From: a virus
Reading direction: 5' to 3' (one strand)
Length of the DNA: 29,107 nt
Virus record (IMG/VR): IMGVR_UViG_3300043418_000026
Location: 1-29,107 of that record
Part shown: positions 7,016-25,403 of the stretch, one piece after another
Position numbering within the stretch: position 1 is the first letter of the stretch
Layout: each line of letters begins with the position of its first letter
Made by a program: the position numbers and the translations under genes
The notes under the pieces: generated by a model
Databases searched by the model: none
Told to the model about the DNA's origin: nothing
What the model saw: only the letters and a program-made list of their open reading frames with translations

Positions 7016-7047
7016 CAAAGTTATGAAATTTTATCTATAAAAGACAA
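7016..7047 (-). promoter_or_regulatory. Bacteroidetes-type promoter of the tail operon
   Basis: On the minus strand TTG (7047-7045) is followed by a 21-base spacer and TAACTTTG (7023-7016), an exact match to the TTG-N19-21-TAnnTTTG consensus. The -7 box ends 24 bases before the ATG of the first tail gene, the same geometry as several other promoters in this window. The -33 element overlaps the 3' arm of the upstream terminator hairpin. Confidence 0.75.
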
Positions 7048-7074
7048 TGCCCTAACTCAAAGAGCTAAGGCATT
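7035..7074 (-). terminator. Intrinsic terminator after the envelope cassette
   Basis: On the minus strand the arms AATGCCTTAGCTC and GAGTTAGGGCATT (7074-7046) pair over 13 bp, with two G-U pairs and a TTT loop, followed by GTCTTTTATAG. It lies 33 bases after the stop of the 67-aa gene and just before the tail promoter, so it separates two transcription units. The T-tract is short (TCTTTT), so read-through is possible. Confidence 0.75.
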
Positions 7075-7106
7075 AGTATTCATTTTCCATTAATAAAACG
7101 TATTCG

Positions 7107-7310
7107 CTATTTTCTCATCTTGTTGACTATATCGTTAAGCCCGCCAAGAACATTATTCTCTAAATCTAACCTAGATTCGATTGGAACCTCTTTTATGCTC
7201 TCTAGGATATCTAAATATGTTTTCACTTTAGCATCCTGAATACCAAGGAATTTGATGTGCTCCATATCATCGTGATTGATAGCATCTGAGGGAATCATAA
7301 ATTGAATCAT
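7107..7310 (-). CDS. Hypothetical small protein, 67 aa
   Basis: This 67-residue protein is mostly helical and charged (DDMEHIKFLGIQDAKVKTYLDILESIKEVP...LDLENNVLGGLNDIVNKMRK). It has no signal peptide, Cys pair or membrane segment. It starts 28 bases after the stop of the outer-membrane-protein gene, and a near-consensus promoter (TATCTTTA -7) lies about 20 bases upstream. It is the last gene before the terminator at 7035-7074. An in-frame ATG at codon 5 is an alternative start. I do not recognise the family. A cytoplasmic regulator or a small virion or anti-host protein are all possible. Confidence 0.65.
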   Translation of the reverse strand: MIQFMIPSDAINHDDMEHIKFLGIQDAKVKTYLDILESIKEVPIESRLDLENNVLGGLNDIVNKMRK

Positions 7311-7329
7311 ATCCTTGTGTTTAGTGGGG

Positions 7330-7361
7330 TAAAGATACCTATAAATTTATCTTAGTCCCAA
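7330..7361 (-). promoter_or_regulatory. Candidate weak promoter of the 67-aa gene
   Basis: On the minus strand TTG (7361-7359), a 21-base spacer and TATCTTTA (7337-7330) match the Bacteroidetes consensus except for the final G. The distance to the ATG at 7310 is about 20 bases, similar to the strong promoters here. It overlaps the 3' end of the preceding gene. Confidence 0.4.
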
Positions 7362-8598
7362 TCATCCCTAAATAACTTTGGGGAATAATCGGATTGCTAT
7401 TAAACCCTGTCTTCAAGGCAAAGTTGAACTTGAAGCGTTTAGTAAGTGCAATATCAAACGATGCCCCAGTAAGAACTCCAACGTCATTAGATGTCACAAA
7501 CTTCTGTTGTGAGGTTAAATAACCCGTTGCACTACCTGAGAAGTATATATCTGGAGATACCGTTAGTCTCTTACTAACCTTAACTGGTATTGTGTAGAAC
7601 AGCATTATGTTATTACTGATATTCATCCCAGCATCTGCGCCTGCAAAACTAAGCGTATAGTTGGCTCCTGACGTGCCGTATTTCCCTAAAGGTTGGATAT
7701 GTGCCGCAGTAACAAATCCGAGCGCTGTTCCGCCTAAATAGACGCCTGTGATACCAAAGTTAGAGATGGACTGCATCTTACCTCCAGCAAAGTTTAACAT
7801 AGTGTATCTACCACTAAGCGCAAACTGATTAAGCGTAGACCATATCATAGTAGATATACCCCACGAAGAGTTGCCCATTAGTGAACTTTGACTCATTCCT
7901 ACGCTTGCGATAATAGAAATAACATCACTTGATGGAGCGACTGTAAAGTCCGAGCTATATATAATCGGATTCGCCACAGCAGTCGATTTCTTGGCTTCGC
8001 TCTTCTTTTCTGATTTGGATTCTTTCTTGCTTTCACTTTTCGATTCGGATTTAGACTCTGACTTAGACTCAGATTTAGATGAACTTTCTTCGCTTTTAGA
8101 CGAACTATTAGACGAACTTTCACTGGAACTGCTTGATTCTGAGCTACTTGAGCTGTTAGAATTAGATGAACTTTGTGAAGAATTAGACGTTCCCGTAGAC
8201 ATTCCTGTAGACGCCGCTGAACTAGCTGCCGATGAAGCAGCACTTGTTGCTGCAGATGTAGCTGCTGACGTAGCCTGTGATGTTGCCGCGGATGCTGCCG
8301 CTGCTACTGCTTGTTGTACAGCGTTAGCTACGGTTTGTGTTACAGCGACAGTAGCCTGCGGGCAAGGGAAGTTAATGGTTAAATCGTTAATCCAAGCCTG
8401 TAGCGCGCCTGTAGTAATATCGTTAGACGTTACTACTCTGTACTGTCCTCTATAGACTACAGTAGTCTTGCCATTAGCCAAAGGTACGGTAACAACGGTA
8501 ACTTTCCCAGAGCAAGGGTCAACAAAGGTTTGGGTTAAAACTTGTGAATATGCACATAGTGGGGCTATGATAAATAGGAGTGCATATATCAGTTTCAT
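7339..8598 (-). CDS. Predicted secreted outer-membrane beta-barrel-like protein with Ala/Ser/Lys linker
   Basis: The 419 residues show four parts. A signal peptide covers about residues 1-18 (MKLIYALLFIIAPLCAYS). A small N-terminal domain at about 19-80 contains FVDPCSGKVTVVTVPLANG and two Cys. A low-complexity linker follows at about 97-205, first Ala/Ser/Thr-rich, then poly-Ser, then Ser-Glu-Ser-Lys repeats. The C-terminal domain at about 210-419 is rich in alternating hydrophobic/polar strands, Gly and aromatics (GRYTMLNFAGGKM, LTVSPDIYFSGSATGYLT, FKFNFALKTGFNSN) and looks like an outer-membrane beta-barrel. Its ATG overlaps the stop of the CsgG-like gene (TAATG at 8600-8596), so the two are probably translationally coupled and act together. 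It could be a partner or gate of the CsgG-like pore, or a surface-exposed phage protein. Exact family not recognised. Confidence 0.7.
   Translation of the reverse strand: MKLIYALLFIIAPLCAYSQVLTQTFVDPCSGKVTVVTVPLANGKTTVVYRGQYRVVTSNDITTGALQAWINDLTINFPCPQATVAVTQTVANAVQQAVAAAASAATSQATSAATSAATSAASSAASSAASTGMSTGTSNSSQSSSNSNSSSSSESSSSSESSSNSSSKSEESSSKSESKSESKSESKSESKKESKSEKKSEAKKSTAVANPIIYSSDFTVAPSSDVISIIASVGMSQSSLMGNSSWGISTMIWSTLNQFALSGRYTMLNFAGGKMQSISNFGITGVYLGGTALGFVTAAHIQPLGKYGTSGANYTLSFAGADAGMNISNNIMLFYTIPVKVSKRLTVSPDIYFSGSATGYLTSQQKFVTSNDVGVLTGASFDIALTKRFKFNFALKTGFNSNPIIPQSYLGMIGTKINL
7984..8310 (-). repeat. Low-complexity coding repeat (Ala/Ser/Thr then Ser/Glu/Lys)
   Basis: About 325 bases encode ATSAATSAASSAAS-type, poly-Ser and SESKSESK-type tracts inside the barrel-protein gene. 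The DNA is built of short imperfect tandem units, so it is prone to slippage and to length variation. The opposite strand reads as an Asp/Leu/Ser repeat ORF, which is a shadow. Confidence 0.8.
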
Positions 8599-9308
8599 TA
8601 CTTGAAGATTTTCTTCTTAATCATTCTAACAATGATTTTTGCGGCAGCGTTCTCTAACGCTTTCTTTGTGGTTGTACCAATAGTAGACTGGTTAAACTTA
8701 ATCTCCGCAAAGTTGCCATCATTCATTAACGTAGCCTCGCGCGTAGTTTTAGCTTCTCCTAGTCCTGAGCCTGTAAAGAACTCTCCAGTCTCCGCATTCA
8801 CAAACTTTACCTGCAAACCTAGCCGTGTGACTACAGTTTGTTTAGTGTCGCCTTTGATTGAGATGGACTCATCCTCGCTAATAGAGAAGTCGTAGCATTC
8901 GATGTAACAAAAAAACTGAGCTAACTTAATCTTACCTCTGCCGTCTAGTTTATTCTCCGAGATTCCAGCCTGTGACGCTTGGAACTGCTTGACCATCCTG
9001 TTCTTAATCTCAGCCTTGTCTTCGGTAAATGTGAAGCGATTAGTTTCCTCTAGGAACTCGATAACAATGTTAGTGACACCAAGACCAACGCGCTTATCTT
9101 TTAGCTCAGGATACGCAGCGTAAACCTCCTCGTTGATGCCTAAAGACAATAGCTGAATAGGAATCTTTGGACCATCGTAGTCCATTAATGAATCGATATT
9201 AATCTTCTTCTCAAATGATGCTGTATAAGCTTCTGTCTTAACAGAGGCTACCTGAGCTGTTGTCGCAAAAGTTGTCAATAATAGAGACAGAAATAATATC
9301 TTCTTCAT
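8598..9308 (-). CDS. CsgG-like curli-secretion-type protein
   Basis: This 236-residue protein has a signal peptide at about 1-18 (MKKILFLSLLLTTFATTA). The rest follows the CsgG order: GVTNIVIEFLEETNRFTFTED at about 78-97 (cf. the 'L...Lv.sgrF.vvEr' core), a strand near KLAQFFCYIECYDF (about 128-141), the LGLQVKFVNAETGEFFTG segment (about 163-180) typical of the CsgG 'vd..TGev' strand, and a C-terminal helix KKALENAAAKIIVRMI. CsgG forms a nonameric outer-membrane channel that exports curli subunits. Unlike CsgG, no lipobox Cys follows the signal peptide, so lipid anchoring is not expected. It is the first gene after a 380-base regulatory gap, and the barrel-protein gene overlaps its stop. Family assignment is from recognised motifs; pore function here is inference. 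Confidence 0.72.
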   Translation of the reverse strand: MKKILFLSLLLTTFATTAQVASVKTEAYTASFEKKINIDSLMDYDGPKIPIQLLSLGINEEVYAAYPELKDKRVGLGVTNIVIEFLEETNRFTFTEDKAEIKNRMVKQFQASQAGISENKLDGRGKIKLAQFFCYIECYDFSISEDESISIKGDTKQTVVTRLGLQVKFVNAETGEFFTGSGLGEAKTTREATLMNDGNFAEIKFNQSTIGTTTKKALENAAAKIIVRMIKKKIFK

Positions 9309-9309
9309 A

Positions 9310-9356
9310 AGGTTATAACCTGAAATATTTAATACAAATTTAAGGCTATAGCCTTA
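9310..9356 (-). promoter_or_regulatory. Candidate promoter/operator of the CsgG-like gene
   Basis: On the minus strand TAAATTTG (9342-9335) fits the TAnnTTTG -7 box and lies 27 bases before the ATG, but no TTG is found at the -33 distance. Two perfect palindromes lie at the site: TAAGGCTATAGCCTTA (9341-9356), touching the -7 box from the upstream side, and AGGTTATAACCT (9310-9321), in the leader. Their centres are 33 bp apart, about three helical turns, which suggests a dimeric regulator binding both. No regulator is proven. Confidence 0.5.
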
Positions 9357-9689
9357 TGGATAACGTTAAAGGTTTTTCAACTATAATTTACAATTTGTAA
9401 ACTGCGATTAACCTTATGCTCAAATCCTTATTATCAGAACTTGTCAAAAATTACAAGTTTCGTCAATAGTGTATATTAGTAATGCAAACCATTGGTTTGG
9501 ATAATTGTCATTTACCAGCCCATATTGGTTTGGTTTTTTATCATTATCCGTAGTATTACTTCCGAATTTGGCAACATTTTGTTACGGATTTTGGCAAATA
9601 GGTACCACTAATTCGGAAAAATTCATGCAAAAGGAGCCACTTAATAACCCGTTGTGCAAATTATTGCACTCCTATTGTGCAAAATAATA
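9357..9689. promoter_or_regulatory. Non-coding intergenic region with clustered dyads
   Basis: No gene is supported in this stretch. It holds several dyads: TTTACAA-T-TTGTAAA (9387-9401), AACTTGT/ACAAGTT with an 8-base loop (9438-9459), CAAACCA-T-TGGTTTG (9485-9499), a long-range pair TTCCGAATT (9560-9568) and AATTCGGAA (9610-9618), and GTGCAA/TTGCAC with a 4-base loop (9654-9669). The direct repeat ATTGGTTTGG occurs at 9491-9500 and 9524-9533, and TTGTGCAA at 9652-9659 and 9675-9682. No good intrinsic terminator for the upstream gene was seen. The layout fits a regulatory region. Confidence 0.5.
9652..9682. promoter_or_regulatory. Paired TTGTGCAA motifs downstream of the GIY-YIG/HTH gene
   Basis: TTGTGCAA occurs at 9652-9659 and 9675-9682, with the reverse-oriented TTGCAC between them (9664-9669). 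A third identical TTGTGCAA lies at 10308-10315 in the leader of the same gene. Repetition on both sides of an HTH gene is what operator sites of its own product would look like; binding is not shown. Confidence 0.4.
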
Positions 9690-10280
9690 CTAATAACTAC
9701 CTCTCGGAGTTTTAACTAATGGCATTAATTCACAACCCAATATATCAAGTACGGCTTCTATATTTAATATGGTACTATTTTTGTCTTTGCTTTCCATATT
9801 ATGTATTGTAACCCTTGATACTTTAGCTAAATCTGCTAATTCCTGCTGTGATATATTTAATTGTTTTCGCCTGTATTTAATGAACTCACCTATACAGGAC
9901 ATTCCATTTGTTAAATTTCTAACTAAATCAATTTTATCTTTGAGCCTAGATTCCTCTTTATCTATTTCCTTCTCAAGACCTTCTATTGCTTTACCTCTAT
10001 ACTTAATGTGATTGAACAATATACATCCAACTCTCTGGTAATACTGAATCCAAAAATGCTCCTTTATAACTAATTCGCTTTCTTGGCACTCCTCAATTAC
10101 ATCAACTAAAGGAGCTAATCCTTCTTCCCTTAATTCAATAACCCAATGATTTACTGATTCATTGTGAGAATATGTTAGGTGTGATTTAGCTCTACTAATT
10201 CCACTTGAACTTTTTCCTATATACCTGTAGTCGTCAGTCTTTGGGCATCTTAGCCCATAAATTAAATATGTCCTTGTCAT
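9690..10280 (-). CDS. GIY-YIG nuclease domain fused to XRE-type HTH
   Basis: The 196 residues fall into two parts. Residues about 3-95 are GIY-YIG-like: LIYGL, then YRYIGKSS at 18-25, Arg30 in ISRAKSH, Glu74 in VIKEHFW, and Asn90 near the end of the domain (LFNHIKYRG), matching the catalytic Tyr/Arg/Glu/Asn layout. Residues about 97-120 are a charged coil. Residues about 130-187 are an XRE/HipB-like helix-turn-helix (IKYRRKQLNISQQELADLAKVSRVTIHNMES). The leader contains a 17-bp inverted repeat (10284-10330), and motif TTGTGCAA occurs on both sides of the gene, so autoregulation is plausible. It may be a homing-type nuclease with a DNA-targeting HTH, or a regulator that has kept a nuclease fold. 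It lies inside the envelope cassette, upstream of the CsgG-like gene. Confidence 0.75.
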   Translation of the reverse strand: MTRTYLIYGLRCPKTDDYRYIGKSSSGISRAKSHLTYSHNESVNHWVIELREEGLAPLVDVIEECQESELVIKEHFWIQYYQRVGCILFNHIKYRGKAIEGLEKEIDKEESRLKDKIDLVRNLTNGMSCIGEFIKYRRKQLNISQQELADLAKVSRVTIHNMESKDKNSTILNIEAVLDILGCELMPLVKTPRGSY

Positions 10281-10283
10281 ACC

Positions 10284-10330
10284 ATAAAGTTAAATATATT
10301 TTACACATTGTGCAATATATTTAACTTTAT
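10284..10330. repeat. Perfect 17-bp inverted repeat in the GIY-YIG/HTH leader
   Basis: ATAAAGTTAAATATATT (10284-10300) and its exact reverse complement (10314-10330) flank a 13-base centre that itself contains the dyad CACA-T-TGTG (10304-10312). The repeat ends 3 bases before the ATG of the HTH gene. It could be an operator or a 5'-UTR hairpin. On the plus strand it is followed by a run of T (TTTTTTTTTG), but no plus-strand gene needs a terminator here. Confidence 0.7.
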
Positions 10331-10408
10331 ATAAGCTTTTTTTTTGATTTTATTTATTGTCGGCTTTCTCTACCGTTGAGTGCCATACAATACACTAATG
10401 ATGGAATT

Positions 10409-10714
10409 TTACCACTTCGGTTCTTCCGCAAGCGCCTCCTTTTCAGTCTTTTTCTTAGGAGCGCTCGGTTTTTCTATAACGCGCTCAATAATTTTAGTTC
10501 CGCCTGCAGATGCAGCTTGCTTTTGTTGTTGCGTGTTATTAGTTGTAATGTTAATTACAGGAGCTGGAGCCGATACAGCCGCTGGTGCAGCCGCAGCTTC
10601 TTCTTCGCCTGTTAATTGTTTAGTCACAAATCCGCCTACACCTAGTGCGATTGTGCTTGCTAGTCCGATAAGGATGCTTTTTAATGAGCCGCCGCCCTCT
10701 GATTCTTCTGCCAT
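10409..10714 (-). CDS. Hypothetical single-TM protein, Ala/Pro/Gln rich
   Basis: The 101 residues contain one membrane segment near the N-terminus, about residues 11-30 (LKSILIGLASTIALGVGGFV), after a short acidic/Gly stretch. An Ala/Pro-rich region, an Asn/Gln-rich patch (INITTNNTQQQKQAAS) and a charged Lys/Glu C-terminus follow. There is no cleavable signal peptide. The stop of the lipoprotein gene lies 1 base before its ATG, so the two are in one operon. It might anchor the secreted cassette to the inner membrane, or be a spanin- or virion-type small protein. No family is recognised. Confidence 0.65.
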   Translation of the reverse strand: MAEESEGGGSLKSILIGLASTIALGVGGFVTKQLTGEEEAAAAPAAVSAPAPVINITTNNTQQQKQAASAGGTKIIERVIEKPSAPKKKTEKEALAEEPKW

Positions 10715-10715
10715 T

Positions 10716-11069
10716 TTAATTAATGATTAAAGGTTTTTTAATTGTTACGCCTGATACGTCCGTCAAAGTTAAGTCATATAACCCGCGAGACAATGTATCT
10801 AATTGAATTGTCTTGATTGTAGCCACTGATGTAGCTGTAAACCCAACTGTCTTTAGTGGTTCGGTATTTCCGAATTTGTACACCTGCACAGAGTATTTAG
10901 CTCCAACAGTTGTATTAGCTACAATAGTAGCCTGCTTGCTTTCTACTACTAAGCTAGTAATATCTGTAGATTCAGGATTCGAACCAAGGCTTGTTTCCTT
11001 TTCTAACGTCTCGATGTCTTGGCAAGCTGCCAGCATCACTATCAACAAAAATGCTATCGTCTTCTTCAT
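10716..11069 (-). CDS. Lipoprotein with T9SS-type-A-sorting-like C-terminus
   Basis: The 117-residue protein starts MKKTIAFLLIVMLAAC, a signal peptide with lipobox LAAC (Cys16), so lipidation is expected. After an acidic/Ser linker (17-45), the C-terminal 70 residues form strands resembling the type A sorting domain of type IX secretion: VQVYKFGN.EPLKTV, then IQLDTLSRGLYDLTLTD, then a terminal VTIKKPLIIN (compare 'v.n..G..v......idls.l..GiY.l.l....g....kkliv'). The usual PNPa box is not clear. An alternative is a small Ig-like fold. It lies 5 bases after the cohesin/dockerin-like gene. The combination of lipid anchor and T9SS-like end is odd, because T9SS substrates are normally processed at that end. 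Confidence 0.65.
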   Translation of the reverse strand: MKKTIAFLLIVMLAACQDIETLEKETSLGSNPESTDITSLVVESKQATIVANTTVGAKYSVQVYKFGNTEPLKTVGFTATSVATIKTIQLDTLSRGLYDLTLTDVSGVTIKKPLIIN

Positions 11070-11074
11070 TTAAC

Positions 11075-12850
11075 CTAAAAGTTATTTATTCCCGTTAATT
11101 TTATAACCTCTAGGTTTAAATTAATCCCTAGTTGGTATCCTGACTTAGATGCCGCATCCATATTAGGCGACACGCGAATCACTGTGTTAATGTCTGCTCC
11201 GTTTCCAATAGTCTCAAACTTCAACTTAAATGGAGTAAGCTCACCTGTTACAGGAGTCTTTAGCTCCTTGTCTATCGCTCCAATGACTACCTTGCCATCC
11301 TTATTCTGAACAAACGTGTACCAGGTATTAGGCAGGTCATTTAACAGCGCTACAAATTTAACCTTTGTCGGGTCATAAACGAACTCAAATTGCAAGGCAG
11401 CAATATTACTTTCTTTAGTATTTACCTTTACAGGTATCTCGAAGCTGTTAGTTGTTACAGTTTTACCTAAAATTGTAACATCAATAGATGGGATGTACTG
11501 AGGCGTGTTGATTAACAAGTTAGCTGTCTGTGTCATAGATAAGTTCTTCTTTAAGCTAGGCACTGCGTTAGTAGCAATAGCATTATTAATTACAACCTGT
11601 GAGCTATGGCTTCTGTTAATGTCTCCTGGGATTAAGAACTTAAGTTTTAATGGTAGATTCTTTCCAATCTCAGCTGTCTTAAAGCGCACATAGTTCTTGT
11701 CTACATCTTTCCAGTTTGCTGCTGTCATCTTATTGAACGTAGAGTCTGTAAACGTAGGTACACTCATATACATATCAGTACCTGCTGCATAGTTACTCGG
11801 CAGCATAACCAACGATTCTACGCCTGTTACCTGCGCAAACAATCTAACTAAGTCTCCTCCGTCTAGCTTCTTGTTGTAATTCACATCTGATGCGTAATAT
11901 CCTGCACCTGTGATAATGTTCTGGTTCCTGAATGTGCCATCTAGGTTCTGCGTAACAAACTCAGCCTGCGCAGTTGTATAGTCAGAAACGGTAACTGCTG
12001 CCGCGGATAAGTCTTTAACACTGTCCATATTAAATAATGTTCTGACGTGGTAAACAGTATTAGGCTTGAACTGATTCTGGTCTACAGGAATTGTGCCGTC
12101 GGATAAAGCATCAACTAAGTATGTTGTATTAGCCACGCTATCTGTAAATGCAATTCTATGTAGCGACTGAACGTCCACATTTGCGTTGTAATCAATCGTT
12201 GGATTGATATATCTAGTAGCAACTGGGTCTAGCATAATAACGCTTGTAAGAGGCGTTGTCATCAAGGTTGAGCCGCTAGTACCATTCTGATTAAATGCTG
12301 CCGCAAAATTCATTATAATAGGGTTCCAAGCGTATCCTAGAGCATCTGTCTTTAGTTTAAACTTAAGAACCAATAATCTATCAGTCCCTAGTCCACCAGA
12401 AGCTATCGACCAGTTAAGGTATACACGAAGGATTGATTTAGGTCCTCCTTGAGTATAGCTGTACTGGCAGTTATTGTAGTTGGTATTGCCGTTATCGGTT
12501 GTATTTAATGTAGTCTTGTTGTAGCTGTATCCTGGATAGTTCTGGAAGCTCATTGAGATTTGTGAGCCGTAAGGGATAATGCCGCCGTTACCACCTGTTC
12601 CTGTGTTAGCAACACTTATTAATTGGAATGCTGTGTTCTGATATTCGAAGTCAAAGTATAATGCGCGAGTGGATGTGTTGCCGTTTCCATCCGCCATCAC
12701 GGTTACTATGAACTCGTCACCTTTGTTAATAACAGCGCCATTAACATTGGTATTAGTGTTTGCATTTTGCAAACTTAGCTTAACTGTTTGAGCAGATGCG
12801 CTGTAGGTAAGCAGCAGAATTGCTGCAAGGGCAAACCATAGTTTTTTCAT
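11075..12850 (-). CDS. Secreted protein with cohesin-like and dockerin-like modules
   Basis: The 591 residues start with a signal peptide (1-20, ending YSASA before QTVKL). Residues about 22-210 look cohesin-like: KGDEFIVTVMADG, then ALYFDFEYQNTAFQLISV. Residues about 317-345 carry a dockerin-type calcium loop (YASDVNYNKKLDGGDLVRLF; Asp322, Asn324, Asn326, Asp330), and a second, weaker one is IPGDINRSHS (about 407-416). Residues about 453-585 form a second cohesin-like domain (FEIPVKVNTKESNIAALQFEFVYDPTKVKFV, with the typical 'F.f.YDp..v.fv'). Such modules assemble extracellular complexes in bacteria. The ATG overlaps the stop of the 152-aa gene (TAATG). The domains are recognised by eye; the surface-scaffold role is inference. 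It might be a phage-specific adhesin. Confidence 0.68.
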   Translation of the reverse strand: MKKLWFALAAILLLTYSASAQTVKLSLQNANTNTNVNGAVINKGDEFIVTVMADGNGNTSTRALYFDFEYQNTAFQLISVANTGTGGNGGIIPYGSQISMSFQNYPGYSYNKTTLNTTDNGNTNYNNCQYSYTQGGPKSILRVYLNWSIASGGLGTDRLLVLKFKLKTDALGYAWNPIIMNFAAAFNQNGTSGSTLMTTPLTSVIMLDPVATRYINPTIDYNANVDVQSLHRIAFTDSVANTTYLVDALSDGTIPVDQNQFKPNTVYHVRTLFNMDSVKDLSAAAVTVSDYTTAQAEFVTQNLDGTFRNQNIITGAGYYASDVNYNKKLDGGDLVRLFAQVTGVESLVMLPSNYAAGTDMYMSVPTFTDSTFNKMTAANWKDVDKNYVRFKTAEIGKNLPLKLKFLIPGDINRSHSSQVVINNAIATNAVPSLKKNLSMTQTANLLINTPQYIPSIDVTILGKTVTTNSFEIPVKVNTKESNIAALQFEFVYDPTKVKFVALLNDLPNTWYTFVQNKDGKVVIGAIDKELKTPVTGELTPFKLKFETIGNGADINTVIRVSPNMDAASKSGYQLGINLNLEVIKLTGINNF

Positions 12851-13308
12851 TATAATAGCTTAGTGATTAAGGTGTTACAAGATTTCTTTATTGCGGAACT
12901 CAAGTTGGTTTGATTGAAAACTCCTCCTTCGTCAATTAAAAGCATAGCCATCGAAACCTCTTCTGCTTGCTCTTCTACGATGACAGTCTTCTTAATCTTG
13001 CCGTCCTGTATTAACTTTCCCCTTAGACGAATAACTACCGCTTCCTTATTGCTATGGAATACGGATAGATTCGACTGAGTTTTAAGTACATCTAAATAAA
13101 GAATCTCTACCTTAATCTGCGTTGGCGCATCCTCTGATACCTCGTGTCCCGCTTCTTGTAAGAACTCCTCTAGGATATTTTTAACGCCAAACTCTAAGTT
13201 TCTGTTACCAGCAAGTGCTCCAATCTGTACATTATTCTGTACAGATGCTACAGTTATTTCTTGTGGCTTCATAAGCCAGAAGAGCAGTATGCTTAACAGT
13301 AATCTCAT
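12850..13308 (-). CDS. Secreted 152-aa protein, possible short CsgG-fold relative
   Basis: An N-terminal hydrophobic stretch (MRLLLSILLFWLM, about 1-13) looks like a signal peptide or anchor. The mature part has FGVKNILEEFLQEAGHEVSED (about 40-60), which parallels GVTNIVIEFLEETN..FTED in the CsgG-like protein of this cassette. Strands VVIRLRGKLIQDGKIKKT and a C-terminal helix (SSAIKKSCNTLITKLL) lie in the same order. It is shorter than CsgG and lacks the pore-hairpin region. Other small periplasmic alpha/beta folds (YajG- or LptE-like) are alternatives. It starts 2 bases after the 41-aa basic gene and overlaps the cohesin-like gene by one base, so it heads the first half of the envelope cassette. 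Confidence 0.6.
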   Translation of the reverse strand: MRLLLSILLFWLMKPQEITVASVQNNVQIGALAGNRNLEFGVKNILEEFLQEAGHEVSEDAPTQIKVEILYLDVLKTQSNLSVFHSNKEAVVIRLRGKLIQDGKIKKTVIVEEQAEEVSMAMLLIDEGGVFNQTNLSSAIKKSCNTLITKLL

Positions 13309-13310
13309 AT

Positions 13311-13436
13311 CTATCCTTGCCCTCTACTGCGTTTCGACGGACTTTCTTTTGGACCATTTGTCTTCTTGTGCTTGCCGTTACGACGTACACCAAATACAAC
13401 CTTTTTGTTTTCCGATGATGGTTTTTGCTTTGCCAT
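13311..13436 (-). CDS. Small basic protein, 41 aa
   Basis: This short ORF was found by filling the gap between the endolysin and the 152-aa gene. Its ATG (13436-13434) overlaps the endolysin stop as TAATG, and its TAG (13313-13311) lies two bases before the next ATG. The product is strongly basic: MAKQKPSSENKKVVFGVRRN, then Lys/Arg/Gly/Ser-rich to the end. It has no membrane segment. The packing on both sides argues that it is a real gene. Function unknown; a nucleic-acid-binding or peptidoglycan/envelope-interacting peptide is possible. Confidence 0.65.
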   Translation of the reverse strand: MAKQKPSSENKKVVFGVRRNGKHKKTNGPKESPSKRSRGQG

Positions 13437-14308
13437 TATGCTAGTAAGTGATAAAAATGCTTAAACTCTTTCTTTCTTTCGCTTAAACCAATGGTTCCCC
13501 CATTTATGCGTTTAGTTAATTTAGTAACCACCTCATCAGATGAACCTTGGTCGCAGATTCCCCACAGACTATTTTTCTTGAAAAAGAAAGCCGCAGAAGC
13601 TAAGGCATATCTAGTTGCTACTAAATCAGGATTGCTCATAATTTCAGGCATCTGCATAAAGTTAGCAAAGTCTTGGTAGTTTGATTTACCTGTAGTTTGC
13701 AAGGCGCCTCTACCTCTGTACTTCCATCCATCTCCGCTTGCTTCGCTACCATTGCCCATACGGTTAGCATAAACCTTGTTAGCAATCTTCTCTGGCTTAC
13801 GTTCGTATTGCAAAGCAACAGTTACGCTAGGGAAATACTTACGGAAGATTCCGCATAAGCCTTTCGCCGAGTAGTTGAGATTTTCTTGCGTAGCTCTAAA
13901 GCCGCCAGACTCGTGCCCACATTGTGCTAAGAAGTGAGCAAGTCGTAATGGAGTTGTGATTCCAAAACGAGCTGCCGTATCAGGTATAGCATCAATAACA
14001 GCCTGAGGAACGTGTCCCTTAAGAGCGTCTAGCTTGAATACTGGTAAGCTTACACTTGGCGCAGGTGGTGCAAATGAAACAGGAGTATTGATTACTACTG
14101 AATCATAAGTAGGAGGCGTTACCACTGGAGCAAACATCTTCGCCCACGTTGAATCTCCTACAATGCCATCAGGTGTTAAACCGTGAGCGGATTGCCAACC
14201 TTTAACAGCTGCTTCTGTCTTAGGACCAAACTTGCCAATAGGGTCTACGCCAAGCTTAACTTGAAGCTTAGTGACATCCTCCCCAAATGAACCTAGTCTT
14301 AATAGCAT
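13436..14308 (-). CDS. Endolysin: PG-binding domain plus GH19 lysozyme/chitinase-like domain
   Basis: The 290 residues contain a peptidoglycan-binding module at about 3-60 (GSFGEDVTKLQVKLGVDPIG, then TPDGIVGDSTWAKM). A Pro/Val-rich linker runs to about 90. A GH19-type catalytic domain covers about 95-290, with LAHFLAQCGHESGGF (catalytic Glu133), QENLNYS (candidate second acid Glu142) and GDGWKYRGRGALQTTGKSNY (about 192-211). Such enzymes cleave the glycan backbone of the cell wall at lysis. There is no signal peptide, so passage through the inner membrane needs a holin, and a two-TM candidate lies about 800 bases upstream. The start lies one base after the stop of the 58-aa gene. Confidence 0.9.
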   Translation of the reverse strand: MLLRLGSFGEDVTKLQVKLGVDPIGKFGPKTEAAVKGWQSAHGLTPDGIVGDSTWAKMFAPVVTPPTYDSVVINTPVSFAPPAPSVSLPVFKLDALKGHVPQAVIDAIPDTAARFGITTPLRLAHFLAQCGHESGGFRATQENLNYSAKGLCGIFRKYFPSVTVALQYERKPEKIANKVYANRMGNGSEASGDGWKYRGRGALQTTGKSNYQDFANFMQMPEIMSNPDLVATRYALASAAFFFKKNSLWGICDQGSSDEVVTKLTKRINGGTIGLSERKKEFKHFYHLLA

Positions 14309-14487: not shown

Positions 14488-15093
14488 TTATTTTAGTTTA
14501 TAGTAATAACCAGCACCGTACATAACATTTCCATCAATATCGACAGAAGCTTTAATGTTATACAGCTGGTCTTTTTTGGTTTTCAATATCATTCCCGCTT
14601 CAGCACCTCTTATTCCAAGAGCATTGTTAACGAGGACACCTGCTCCAACAAATACATTCCGTGTAGGTGGTGCGTATTTAGTAATAGTTTTAGTCTCCTT
14701 AACGATTGGAATGTTGAAATTATCACGCGTTCTTCTATACTTTAGTTTGTTCTCGTTGATTGTATCTAGTACAGCAATGTATCCGTAGGTTCCGACTCTA
14801 ATTGTATCTGAATAGATAAGCTTATTCATATACAACTGAAGTAACGCCATATACTGCTCCTTTAACTTAGCGTAGTTTGTATCAGGTAACATCTCAGGCT
14901 TAGACATAACGTCTACACGAATCTCCTTGTAGATAACCTTTGTCTTCTCTACGATAGAGTCGTGCACTTGCCAAGACGTATCGTGTACAACTAAGGTATC
15001 ATTAGGACGAGCCTCGCCAGCTTGCATATGCTTAGTATAAGCATAGAAGATAGCAATGATACAACAGATAAAAAGGGCTATATTAACCTTCAT
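14488..15093 (-). CDS. Inner-membrane-anchored periplasmic protein, spanin-like candidate
   Basis: The 201 residues start with one membrane helix (about 3-19, VNIALFICCIIAIFYAYT). A periplasmic part follows with helical/charged segments (VEKTKVIYKEIRVDVMSKPEM, then KLKEQYMALLQLYMNKLIYSDTIRV). The C-terminal 60 residues are strand- and Gly-rich (NVFVGAGVLVNNALGIRGAEAGM, ending VMYGAGYYYKLK). The N-terminal TM plus long periplasmic stalk and the position between holin and endolysin fit an i-spanin-type role linking inner and outer membranes. The strand-rich end may contact the outer membrane. It resembles proteins labelled as domains of unknown function in other Bacteroidetes phages. It overlaps the holin gene by 11 bases. 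Confidence 0.65.
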   Translation of the reverse strand: MKVNIALFICCIIAIFYAYTKHMQAGEARPNDTLVVHDTSWQVHDSIVEKTKVIYKEIRVDVMSKPEMLPDTNYAKLKEQYMALLQLYMNKLIYSDTIRVGTYGYIAVLDTINENKLKYRRTRDNFNIPIVKETKTITKYAPPTRNVFVGAGVLVNNALGIRGAEAGMILKTKKDQLYNIKASVDIDGNVMYGAGYYYKLK

Positions 15094-15373
15094 CTTCTGG
15101 AAGCGGGTCTAATCCGCCAGGTAAGTTCTTTTCGCGCTCAGCATCAGTCTTACGGTTTTGAACTTTCTCATAAGATGAGATACCAAAACAACCAGCTGTT
15201 AATGCAGCGAATACTTCTAGGATGATAGGTTCAATAACGAATACCTTGCCTTCAAGACCTGTGATAACGTCTACAATACCGTAGATGAATAAAACAGCGA
15301 ATGACAAGAATCCTAGTACGGATTTTTCGTTGATATCATTGTCATCGCGGAATAATTGTGAAATAAAAGACAT
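15083..15373 (-). CDS. Holin candidate (two TM segments)
   Basis: The 96 residues have a charged N-terminus (MSFISQLFRDDNDINEKS), a first TM at about 17-38 (VLGFLSFAVLFIYGIVDVIT), a second at about 46-66 (VIEPIILEVFAALTAGCFGI), and a charged C-terminal tail rich in Lys/Glu then Pro/Asp/Gly. Length, two helices and a charged tail fit a class II-type holin that lets endolysin reach the wall. It sits between the one-TM coiled-coil protein and the spanin-like gene, in the same orientation as the endolysin. The fold is the evidence; no experiment supports pore formation. An antiholin or plain membrane anchor is the alternative. Confidence 0.7.
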   Translation of the reverse strand: MSFISQLFRDDNDINEKSVLGFLSFAVLFIYGIVDVITGLEGKVFVIEPIILEVFAALTAGCFGISSYEKVQNRKTDAEREKNLPGGLDPLPEDEG

Positions 15374-16321: not shown

Positions 16322-16753
16322 TTAGCAGTCTACGATATTGTCTTCTCCAAATAAGTCTACTAGCTTAGCTTTTAAGTGGGAGTATCCGAATGAGAAGATG
16401 TCAACACCTTCTGCAGAAGATAAATCTGGTACAGAAATTGTGATTGTTTCAACACGGTCAGCTAATGCATTACCTTCAGCGTCTACGCCAGGAGTTGGAT
16501 ATGTTACCGTCTTCTCCTCTTGCTTGTTCAATTGAACGTAAATGTTGTCTCCAATCTGTTGATTGCGAGCTTGCCCCGCTAACATCCCTGGCATAGCCGT
16601 CGAGACTAGTGTTGCATCATCTTCTGATTGGAAGATTTCTACTTGGAAGTTAGCTGAACCAAACTTAGATAGTTGGTAGTTTGAGATACGCACATAAGCT
16701 TCTGATGTGATACCTTTGTCTGTCCCGATTTGGGTTGTGATTTTTAATGCCAT
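16322..16753 (-). CDS. Hypothetical protein, paralogue of the upstream 139-aa protein
   Basis: This 143-residue protein begins MALKITTQIGTDKGITSEAY and shares a clear pattern with its neighbour at 16766-17185: 'MA..I.T.IGTD.GI...AYVRIS.Y...K.G...F.V.IF...D.T' at the start, then 'DLS', and a final 'F..GY..L..KL..L.GE.NI'. The middle differs in sequence. It lacks a signal peptide or TM and is predicted beta-rich with a helical end. The tandem copies lie 12 bases apart, directly after the large fibre gene, so a fibre-attachment or small tail protein role is likely. No named family is recognised. Confidence 0.75.
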   Translation of the reverse strand: MALKITTQIGTDKGITSEAYVRISNYQLSKFGSANFQVEIFQSEDDATLVSTAMPGMLAGQARNQQIGDNIYVQLNKQEEKTVTYPTPGVDAEGNALADRVETITISVPDLSSAEGVDIFSFGYSHLKAKLVDLFGEDNIVDC

Positions 16754-16765
16754 TTTTTATTTAAG

Positions 16766-17185
16766 TTATACTGTTTCAATGTTTTCTTCTCCGTATAAGG
16801 ATGCTAGTTTTTCACCTAGCTTTTCGTAGCCTACTTCAAAGATAGTCTTTGTTTCAAATACTGACAAGTCAGATATTTTTTTAGTAAACGTCTCTTCCAT
16901 TTCAGTGTCTACACCATCCACTTGCTTAGTAATAGTCTTTGTGTATTCTATCCTATTTGTCATCTTTAAGTCAAGGGATATTCCTATTTCCTTTGACTGA
17001 AGCTTATTAGGGTGGACAGTAGGTATATATGACGTATCATATTCCGTTGCATCTTTATTCCTAAAAATGTCAACTATAAATACTACATTACCATTCTTAT
17101 TTACATCGTATCCGCTTATACGAACATATGCTCCTGTTATAATGCCTGCATCAGTGCCAATAGGGGTGTTAATTTGGAATGCCAT
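16766..17185 (-). CDS. Hypothetical protein, paralogue of the downstream 143-aa protein
   Basis: The 139 residues begin MAFQINTPIGTDAGIITGAYVR and match the next gene in N-terminal half, SDLS core and C-terminal GYEKLGEKLASLYGEENI. The middle is more Lys/Thr/Glu-rich (EYTKTITKQVDGVDTEMEET). It starts 4 bases after the stop of the S74 fibre gene. Both copies were probably produced by tandem duplication and have diverged, perhaps to attach different fibres. No enzymatic motif is present. Confidence 0.75.
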   Translation of the reverse strand: MAFQINTPIGTDAGIITGAYVRISGYDVNKNGNVVFIVDIFRNKDATEYDTSYIPTVHPNKLQSKEIGISLDLKMTNRIEYTKTITKQVDGVDTEMEETFTKKISDLSVFETKTIFEVGYEKLGEKLASLYGEENIETV

Positions 17186-24607: not shown

Positions 24608-24620
24608 TTATTGTTTGGTT
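24608..24620 (-). promoter_or_regulatory. Leader motif AACCAAACAATAA before the 271-aa gene
   Basis: The minus strand reads AACCAAACAATAA, ending 5 bases before the ATG at 24603. It also encodes the last codons and stop of the HNH gene (ACC AAA CAA TAA), so the two functions overlap. Confidence 0.5.
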
Positions 24621-25351
24621 TTATAATTTACTCCTTCAAAGGTAGCTCCTTTGGATAAATTATCCAAGCACCATAAAGGCTGTAGATTGGTGTAGTGGTT
24701 TAGCGCAATGATATCTTCCTCGCAAGTAGCTGATGCTAAAGGTTTGATATGGTCAATGTGTATTTCGCCAGCAACGAATGCTTCCCATGTCATGCCATCC
24801 TTAAATTGAGATACTATATGGTCGCGAACTGTCTCCCAGTCGGCGCCAATGATTTGGTTGGTGCGACGAGCTTTGTTTTGTTTGAGTCTAATAAAGCCAC
24901 CCCTTATAACTACGCGTATTCTTTCTTTAAATATACGAAGAGGGTCAGACTTAATTAATTCCATTTTTTTGGCACTAAGTCTTTTGGCGTGCTTTTTTTG
25001 ATATTCTCTATTTTTAGCCTTTACTTTTTCTAAATTATTTTCTCTATATTCTCTACTTTTCCGATTTCTGATTTCTTTGTTAGCTAAATGGTATTCCTTG
25101 CGACTAACTAATATCTCTTCTTTCTTTCGAAGATAGTACTCTTTTTTTTGAGCAAGCTTTTTTTCTTTTAGTTTTTCATAAGAACGCTTATCTGCTTCCT
25201 TTTTCTTTTCTGGGTTAGCTGAATTTCGCTCCTTAAGTTTCTTATTGCAACATACTTTACAGGAGGCTCGTCTTCCGTCTTTAGTGTTTGCTTTGTCAAA
25301 AGTAAATTCTGTTAGCGGCTTTTCTTGTCCGCACATTGTACATTTTTTCAT
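24608..25351 (-). CDS. Free-standing HNH endonuclease
   Basis: I start this gene at ATG 25351-25349 (247 residues). A longer frame from TTG at 25375 would begin inside the -7 box of its own promoter and so cannot lie on that transcript. The product opens with a Cys4 zinc-ribbon-like motif (KKCTMCGQEKPLTEF, then CKVCCNKK). A very long Lys/Glu/Arg-rich helical stretch follows at about 35-125. The HNH core near the C-terminus has HIDHIKPLASATCEED, then NLQPLWCLDNLSKG. This matches phage HNH nucleases of the homing type. It lies between the capsid terminator and the 271-aa gene, and its last codons double as the promoter and leader of that gene. Probably a mobile intron-less homing gene. Confidence 0.88.
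   Translation of the reverse strand: MKKCTMCGQEKPLTEFTFDKANTKDGRRASCKVCCNKKLKERNSANPEKKKEADKRSYEKLKEKKLAQKKEYYLRKKEEILVSRKEYHLANKEIRNRKSREYRENNLEKVKAKNREYQKKHAKRLSAKKMELIKSDPLRIFKERIRVVIRGGFIRLKQNKARRTNQIIGADWETVRDHIVSQFKDGMTWEAFVAGEIHIDHIKPLASATCEEDIIALNHYTNLQPLWCLDNLSKGATFEGVNYKTKQ
24637..24667 (-). promoter_or_regulatory. Bacteroidetes-type promoter of the 271-aa gene, inside the HNH gene
   Basis: On the minus strand TTG (24667-24665), a 20-base spacer and TACCTTTG (24644-24637) match the consensus. The -7 box ends 34 bases before the ATG at 24603. Both boxes lie in the HNH coding region, and the -7 is identical to that of the HNH gene's own promoter. Confidence 0.65.
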
Positions 25352-25356
25352 ATCGT

Positions 25357-25368
25357 TTATTGTTTGGT
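25357..25368 (-). promoter_or_regulatory. Leader motif ACCAAACAATAA before the HNH gene
   Basis: The minus strand reads ACCAAACAATAA, ending 6 bases before the chosen ATG. Its presence at the usual distance supports that start over the upstream TTG. Confidence 0.5.
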
Positions 25369-25372
25369 GCAA

Positions 25373-25403
25373 CAAAGGTATAGAGAAAAAATATTATGAA
25401 CAA
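25373..25403 (-). promoter_or_regulatory. Bacteroidetes-type promoter of the HNH gene
   Basis: On the minus strand TTG (25403-25401), a 20-base spacer and TACCTTTG (25380-25373) match the consensus exactly. The -7 box ends 22 bases before the ATG at 25351, directly downstream of the capsid terminator. Confidence 0.8.

Follow-up and report, generated by a model that had tools for sequence, protein, structure and literature searches.

A six-gene module for envelope-directed proteins shared by unrelated phages of freshwater Bacteroidota

We have analyzed a 29-kb piece of a tailed phage genome, referred to below as the window (the whole stretch of DNA under study). It carries six genes, designated A, B, C, D, F and G, that form a unit common to many unrelated viruses of freshwater Bacteroidota. 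The gene set seems to be undescribed so far; no account of it was found in the literature on Bacteroidota phages, and novelty is judged here on limited coverage, most subscription journals lying outside the search. We tentatively propose, at rather less than an even chance, that this widely shared system remodels the exterior of Bacteroidota cells as they are infected. In it, a ring of CsgG fold and a 12-strand barrel would carry a coat of self-linking cohesin-dockerin protein, sent out either by the type IX secretion system (T9SS) of the host or by a phage lipoprotein that would be a detached T9SS sorting domain.

Gene organization of the window

The main genes of the window all lie on the minus strand and run from the portal through tail fibres, lysis genes and the module region to ring and tail genes. 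The portal, major capsid and ring proteins match virion-protein PHROG families, and the major capsid protein is distantly related (22% identity) to those of Cellulophaga phages phi38:1 and phi40:1. No Rfam elements or tRNAs were found in the window. An earlier note on this DNA had described eight genes between endolysin and tail genes; all eight ORFs were recovered in place on the minus strand, with a GH19 endolysin on one side and tail-ring genes on the other. Judged by its position and by the way phage genomes are organized, the cassette of this phage would belong to the late block. The eight ORFs and three neighbours on the lysis side are as follows.

12850..13308, minus strand: gene A, 152 aa, exported or membrane-anchored periplasmic protein, YajG/TraT-like (Pfam, profiles)
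11075..12850, minus strand: gene B, 591 aa, signal peptide, cohesin-like N-terminus, dockerin motif and C-terminal cohesin (Pfam, motif)
10716..11069, minus strand: gene C, 117 aa, lipoprotein with a T9SS-CTD-like beta domain (lipobox, profiles)
10409..10714, minus strand: gene D, 101 aa, single transmembrane (TM) segment, Ala/Pro/Gln/Asn-rich tail, invariant final Trp (alignment)
9690..10280, minus strand: gene E, 196 aa, GIY-YIG-like and HTH_3, between D and F (HTH_3, 3e-10; GIY-YIG, 0.32)
8598..9308, minus strand: gene F, 236 aa, exported protein of predicted CsgG fold (AF2 model, PDB fold matches)
7339..8598, minus strand: gene G, 419 aa, predicted barrel protein (AF2 model, PDB matches)
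7107..7310, minus strand: gene H, 67 aa (occurrence among loci)
13436..14308, minus strand: neighbour, GH19 endolysin with a peptidoglycan-binding domain (phrog_181, E 6e-67; PG_binding_1, 1e-12)
14488..15093, minus strand: neighbour, 201-aa protein with one N-terminal TM segment and a periplasmic part (sequence; co-occurrence with the module), a candidate i-spanin-like protein
15083..15373, minus strand: neighbour, 96-aa two-TM holin-like protein (sequence)

Composition and distribution of the module

Searches of IMG/VR found relatives of F in 109 stretches and of B in 28, while a profile of A found 479 related stretches, the best 80 of which were retained. All loci were scanned with a profile for each module gene, and duplicates, recognized by an identical A or F gene, were discarded, which left 117 distinct loci. 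All six genes are present in 68 of these, and A, B, D, F and G in 16 more; many of the incomplete loci end at a contig edge. The order A-B-C-D-F-G is kept in nearly every locus, and with so many distinct loci carrying the complete set the association is not a matter of chance. The cassette of eight genes proposed earlier is thereby reduced to a unit of six. E, an insertion between D and F, occurs in 2 of the 117 loci and is ruled out as a module gene. H is likewise ruled out: it is found in 8 of the 117, accompanies the tail-ring genes of close relatives only, and goes with the ring and tail genes, which are likewise present in 8 loci.

Among the 68 loci that could be tested for tail genes (those with G and at least 4 kb of sequence past it), just 8 share the ring and tail genes of the window, so that the module is found in different virion backgrounds. 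The set, which the earlier note suggested looking for in other Bacteroidetes phages, is retained on various phage backbones. The contigs that bear the module reach 148 kb in IMG/VR, and a further one of 254 kb (L110) is binned as Bacteroidetes. The sole isolate with the module is Flavobacterium phage immuto (160 kb), which carries it at 13-16 kb; in public annotation the immuto genes appear mostly as 'hypothetical protein'. F matched only four of 50,697 phage records, all of them Immutovirus, and the module is accessory in nature.

Five of the six module proteins have export signals (a Sec signal or a lipobox) and D has its single TM segment, in agreement with the signal peptides and lipobox listed in the earlier note. 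These signals speak against the proteins being capsid or tail components, a role that the position of the module amid the virion genes of the window would allow. The earlier note had named ordinary virion folds as a finding that would refute its reading; the folds recognized are of outer-membrane or surface type instead. Since the module is also retained while the virion genes around it change, we consider a place in the virion highly improbable.

Distance matrices of the module genes are well correlated with each other (A-G 0.85, B-G 0.83, B-F 0.80 and F-G 0.79). These values do not separate the hypotheses considered below, because those for the lysin are nearly as high (0.66-0.74 against A, B, C, F and G, and 0.50 against D).

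F, A and G: a CsgG-like fold and an outer-membrane barrel

F is the most conserved member of the module, with a mean column identity of 77%. An AF2 model built from 26 aligned sequences is of middling confidence (pLDDT 68) and has long strands. Its top 25 matches in the PDB are all CsgG chains (best 4uv2, E 1.9e-7, prob 1.00), which bears out the CsgG fold noticed earlier in the 236-aa protein; among predicted viral proteins the fold has one strong match, an uncultured-phage CsgG. Direct Pfam and PHROG searches gave nothing useful for naming F, Pfam CsgG matched neither the window nor any of 27 F members, and PDB sequence searches with F, as single sequence or profile, returned no meaningful match. 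HHalign of the F profile against the single E. coli CsgG sequence also gave no signal. The link to CsgG runs only through the fold and through an intermediate, the bacterial homologue at locus L111 (36% identity), which passes Pfam CsgG with 28.6 bits against a cut-off of 20.8. This homologue, from an Ignavibacteriales MAG, is the only bacterial one found, a search of 295 other genomes of that phylum giving none, so that it reveals no ancestral function.

A hydrophobic start that would serve for export is present in 98 of 102 F proteins, and a lipobox in none of the 102 phage proteins. Aligned to E. coli CsgG, F is without 10 of the 20 TM1 residues, and its TM2 is polar and shows no alternating pattern; the limits of TM1 and TM2 are those that we take to apply to E. 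coli CsgG. F thus seems to be without the membrane strands of CsgG; it is CsgG-like in fold and probably a periplasmic ring. The missing TM segment and the absent lipobox weaken the case for a true curli pore, and no Pfam match to CsgA, B, E or F was found in the window cassette. Of the phage-encoded surface structure or outer-membrane channel proposed earlier, an envelope-directed, non-virion set of proteins stands, but F as its pore is doubtful, G being the better candidate for a channel through the membrane.

A may be a small paralogue or relative of F. Its best profile partner is F (E 4e-4, 35% probability), a match that ranks third of 78 pairs and is clear of the background, and the two share the motifs G-V-x-N-I-x-x-E-x-L and F-N-Q...KK. 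At the bacterial locus L111 an A-like gene follows F too. Pfam Lipoprotein_16 (YajG) matches 22 of 33 A members weakly (best 7e-5, under the cut-off for P0002), and TraT matches 3 of the 33, also weakly (best 0.004), the A of the window not among them. PDB sequence searches with A, as single sequence or profile, gave no meaningful match, and direct Pfam and PHROG searches with D gave nothing useful.

G consists of a signal peptide, a small N-terminal domain, a helix (80-129), a disordered linker rich in Ser, Lys and Glu, and a barrel (212-418). The AF2 model predicts about 12 strands of the outer-membrane type, as expected from the barrel recognized earlier in the 419-aa protein. Direct Pfam and PHROG searches with G yielded nothing useful, and Pfam PorP/SprF does not match it. 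The best PDB matches are FapF, KdgM and NanC, with KdgM and NanC similar in strength. Because all three are 12-strand barrels, the likeness to FapF (4-7% sequence identity) is one of architecture only; no Fap operon partners were found in the window cassette.

The folds of F and G raise the idea of a conduit, made of F, A and G, that exports phage proteins or imports large nutrients. Secreted Endonuclease_NS genes lie near the module in 12 loci, and such a neighbouring nuclease could be among the cargo. However, the transmembrane strands of CsgG are apparently missing from F, there is neither an amyloid subunit nor a CsgE/F-like gene, and FapF is just one of many 12-strand matches to the channel-like barrel of G. 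We regard a secretion or uptake channel as decidedly improbable.

B and C: a cohesin-dockerin protein and an exchanged sorting domain

The cohesin and dockerin modules reported earlier in the 591-aa protein are confirmed. Pfam Cohesin matches the B of the window with 29.2 bits (cut-off 24.1), the C-terminal cohesin lying at 469-539, and cohesin is found in 25 of 32 B relatives. The calcium-binding dockerin motif of the window B is at 322-333 (DVNYNKKLDGGD). Its EF-hand first repeat, D-x-N-x-N-x3-D-x2-D, recurs in 28 of the 32 relatives, the second repeat being degenerate, and Dockerin_1 matches 3 of the 32 (5e-4). A weak profile match that stands above background (probability 63) suggests that the N-terminal half is cohesin-like as well. 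PDB sequence searches with B, as single sequence or profile, gave no meaningful match. A hydrophobic start is seen in 90 of 98 B proteins. In one locus B is joined with a C-type lectin in a single protein, and in immuto a lectin gene adjoins the module.

In principle, B could link to itself and polymerise through cohesin-dockerin binding. Together with the lectins, this raises the idea of a mesh that glues infected cells to neighbours or to surfaces, so that progeny meet new hosts. Aggregation or sibling capture of this kind was proposed for the curli genes of pelagimyophages (PMC7029224), but phage Melnitz, which carries csgGF, showed no clumping (PMC9004378). For the module we think such a role improbable.

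Pfam finds a T9SS C-terminal sorting domain (CTD) on 5 of 32 B proteins; the B of the window is without one. Its 117-aa neighbour, C, is a lipoprotein whose lipobox Cys is invariant in 29 sequences. The mature start is C-[SQ]-D-x-E, with [SQ]-D-[ILM]-E after the Cys in many members, and resembles SDDFE, the motif for surface export of lipoproteins (LES) in Flavobacterium (PMC5080379). The T9SS-like end ascribed to C in the earlier note is sub-threshold in the sequence alone (14.0 bits against Por_Secre_tail, cut-off 27), but profile comparison with CTDs supports it (prob 93, E 2.8e-7), this being the strongest of the 78 pairs compared. The distribution of the two domains points the same way. 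Of the 95 loci in which B, D and F all occur, C is present and B free of a CTD in 78; in 13, B carries the CTD and C is missing. Both are lacking in 4 loci, and no locus combines them. Where C is absent, B mostly ends in a T9SS sorting domain (Por_Secre_tail up to 39.5 bits; 44.5 in L110). From this mutual exclusion and the profile match, C is best understood as a T9SS-type domain that has been split off and given a lipid anchor. The exchange connects the two proteins and points to the cell surface as the destination of each.

Association with lysis genes

An endolysin of this family was found in 89 of the 117 loci, each time within 2 kb of the module and in nine arrangements. It may lie inside the module (between F and G in eight loci, between C and D in one and between D and F in one). 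A holin-like TM protein occurs in 49 loci, and in 45 of them it lies within the module. This nearness suggests the main rival to a surface role: an outer-membrane lysis step, in which the module would be a spanin substitute or timed permeabiliser, F and G opening or weakening the outer membrane after holin and endolysin have acted. A role in lysis has been suggested for the csgGF genes of phage Melnitz (PMC9004378).

The link to lysis is strong but not obligatory. In immuto the chitinase, the holin and the adjoining homologue of the 96-aa protein are at 43-45 kb, 28 kb from the module, and the endolysin is on the opposite strand in five loci. Most Bacteroidota phages in the phage collection are without the module, which argues that it is not a required lysis step. 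Unrelated genes also gather in late-gene neighbourhoods, and the position of the module may reflect late timing instead of a lysis function. A surface cohesin-dockerin protein and T9SS routing are poorly explained by lysis, and we consider a lysis function rather unlikely.

Comparison with known systems

The earlier note mentioned CsgG/CsgF-type genes in marine phages; csgF and csgG are indeed published in SAR11 phages (pelagimyophages) and OM43 phages (PMC7029224, PMC9004378). The operons of pelagimyophages and Melnitz, like the module, place a CsgG-fold protein in a small group of genes for exported proteins without an amyloid subunit. The module differs in its hosts, which are Bacteroidota, in an F without a lipobox and probably without transmembrane strands, and in its partners: a 12-strand barrel, a cohesin-dockerin protein, a lipoprotein resembling a CTD and a TM protein; CsgF was not found. 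Curli (type VIII) and Fap amyloid secretion resemble it in the CsgG fold of F and in FapF as best PDB match of G, and the 12-strand barrel of FapF has an N-terminal helical part that is also seen in G; the module is without the amyloid subunit and CsgE/F of such systems.

T9SS cargo with PorP/SprF-type anchoring (PMC9143113) is paralleled by the CTD on B in 13 loci and by an outer-membrane barrel gene beside that of a surface protein, whereas the CTD-like domain of the window is a separate lipoprotein. Cohesin-dockerin scaffolds, cellulosomal or not, use both module types that B combines; here there are no enzymes, the protein is phage-encoded and exported, and cohesin and dockerin share one polypeptide. 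The superinfection-exclusion lipoproteins T5 Llp and phi80 Cor and the plasmid protein TraT are likewise envelope proteins from mobile elements. A resembles TraT weakly, and the Cor family of PHROG gives E 0.013 against the N-terminal half of C, signal region included. Llp, Cor and TraT are single small proteins, whereas the module comprises six.

Possible function of the module

The explanation that we favour, at a little short of an even chance, is that the module encodes a late-made complex spanning the envelope that shows B on the infected cell, its likeliest use being to block the surface to adsorption. D would be placed in the inner membrane, A and F would form periplasmic rings of the CsgG/YajG class, and G would be the 12-strand barrel in the outer membrane. 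C would be a surface lipoprotein, and B would be exported and kept on the cell surface, where dockerin-cohesin contacts between B molecules could join them as a mesh or a fibre. One lineage would send B, with its own T9SS sorting domain, out through the host secretion system; in the other, C would replace the CTD on B with a lipoprotein copy of the sorting domain. Outer-membrane barrels are known to hold T9SS cargo (PMC9143113). The phage of the window would make the complex late, with its lysis and virion genes, and the host surface would be covered or blocked so that neither other phages nor released progeny attach to an infected cell or to debris from it.

Blocking of the surface would agree with the predicted arrival of B and C there, with the lectin modules and with the accessory distribution of the module. 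Shielding progeny from debris has a precedent in T5 Llp (PMC9586334). On the other side, proteins for superinfection exclusion tend to be small and made early (PMC9586334), whereas the module is large and would be late in the window; this counts against such a use, as does the nearness of endolysin and holin in most loci, which could mean a role in lysis. Also against the proposal, the B of the window is without a T9SS domain to carry it over the outer membrane.

Relatives of the module are present on hundreds of environmental phage contigs (479 stretches for A alone), and immuto and its host make both the surface and the lysis roles testable now. If the module acts at the surface, infected cells would be recoated by way of the T9SS route and cohesin-dockerin chemistry, a new form of superinfection control. 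If it acts in lysis, it would explain the way in which many phages of Bacteroidota get through the outer membrane.

Apparent insertion and other genes in the window

The genes for the one-TM protein D and the CsgG-fold protein F are separated in the window by a GIY-YIG-like/HTH gene and, directly after it, a gene-free stretch of ~380 bp; together these look like a homing-type insertion. The GIY-YIG-like/HTH insertion is present in only 2 of the 117 related loci. The endonuclease VII-like HNH gene lies within the virion gene block, and the two proteins encoded beside the tail fibre gene look like paralogues.

Features of the window
9309-9689, gene-free stretch between D and F
9690-10280, GIY-YIG-like/HTH gene
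16322-17185, two neighbouring genes (143 and 139 aa)
24608-25375, endonuclease VII-like HNH gene, close to the MCP gene

Genes adjoining the module in other loci

Some 12 distinct loci encode secreted DNA/RNA non-specific endonucleases beside the module or within it, and small Asp/Ser/Thr-rich lipoproteins, possibly o-spanins or exclusion lipoproteins, recur no more than a few kb away from it. In one large phage-like contig (L103) the module is adjoined by genes that, by sequence, resemble chaperone and iron-sulphur genes. The only chromosomal F homologue found, a lipoprotein, is in an Ignavibacteriales MAG (L111).

Features of other loci (own coordinates)
L044 9538-10149 and L108 (Flavobacterium phage immuto) 4145-4720, secreted endonuclease, as in some ten further loci
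L110 (254-kb contig) 7045-7230, L108 14097-14324, L044 15959-16147 and L103 17477-17686, lipoproteins of 61-75 aa
L103 5002-8801, Hsp20-, GroES-, GroEL-, IscU-, ferredoxin- and SufA-like genes
L111 9992-16031, F homologue, then A-like gene, 825-aa transglutaminase-like protein and CHASE2-cyclase

Variation of B and F

In phage immuto, the cohesin-dockerin gene B is apparently divided into two genes (L108 5808-7629; 363 and 243 aa), the second encoding a cohesin and a type IX secretion sorting domain. The F gene of another locus (L054, 10001-10705) starts as in its close relatives and then changes to a distant allele. Its identity to these relatives is 75%, versus 88-90% for A, B, C, D and G; this allele switch suggests recombination within the module.
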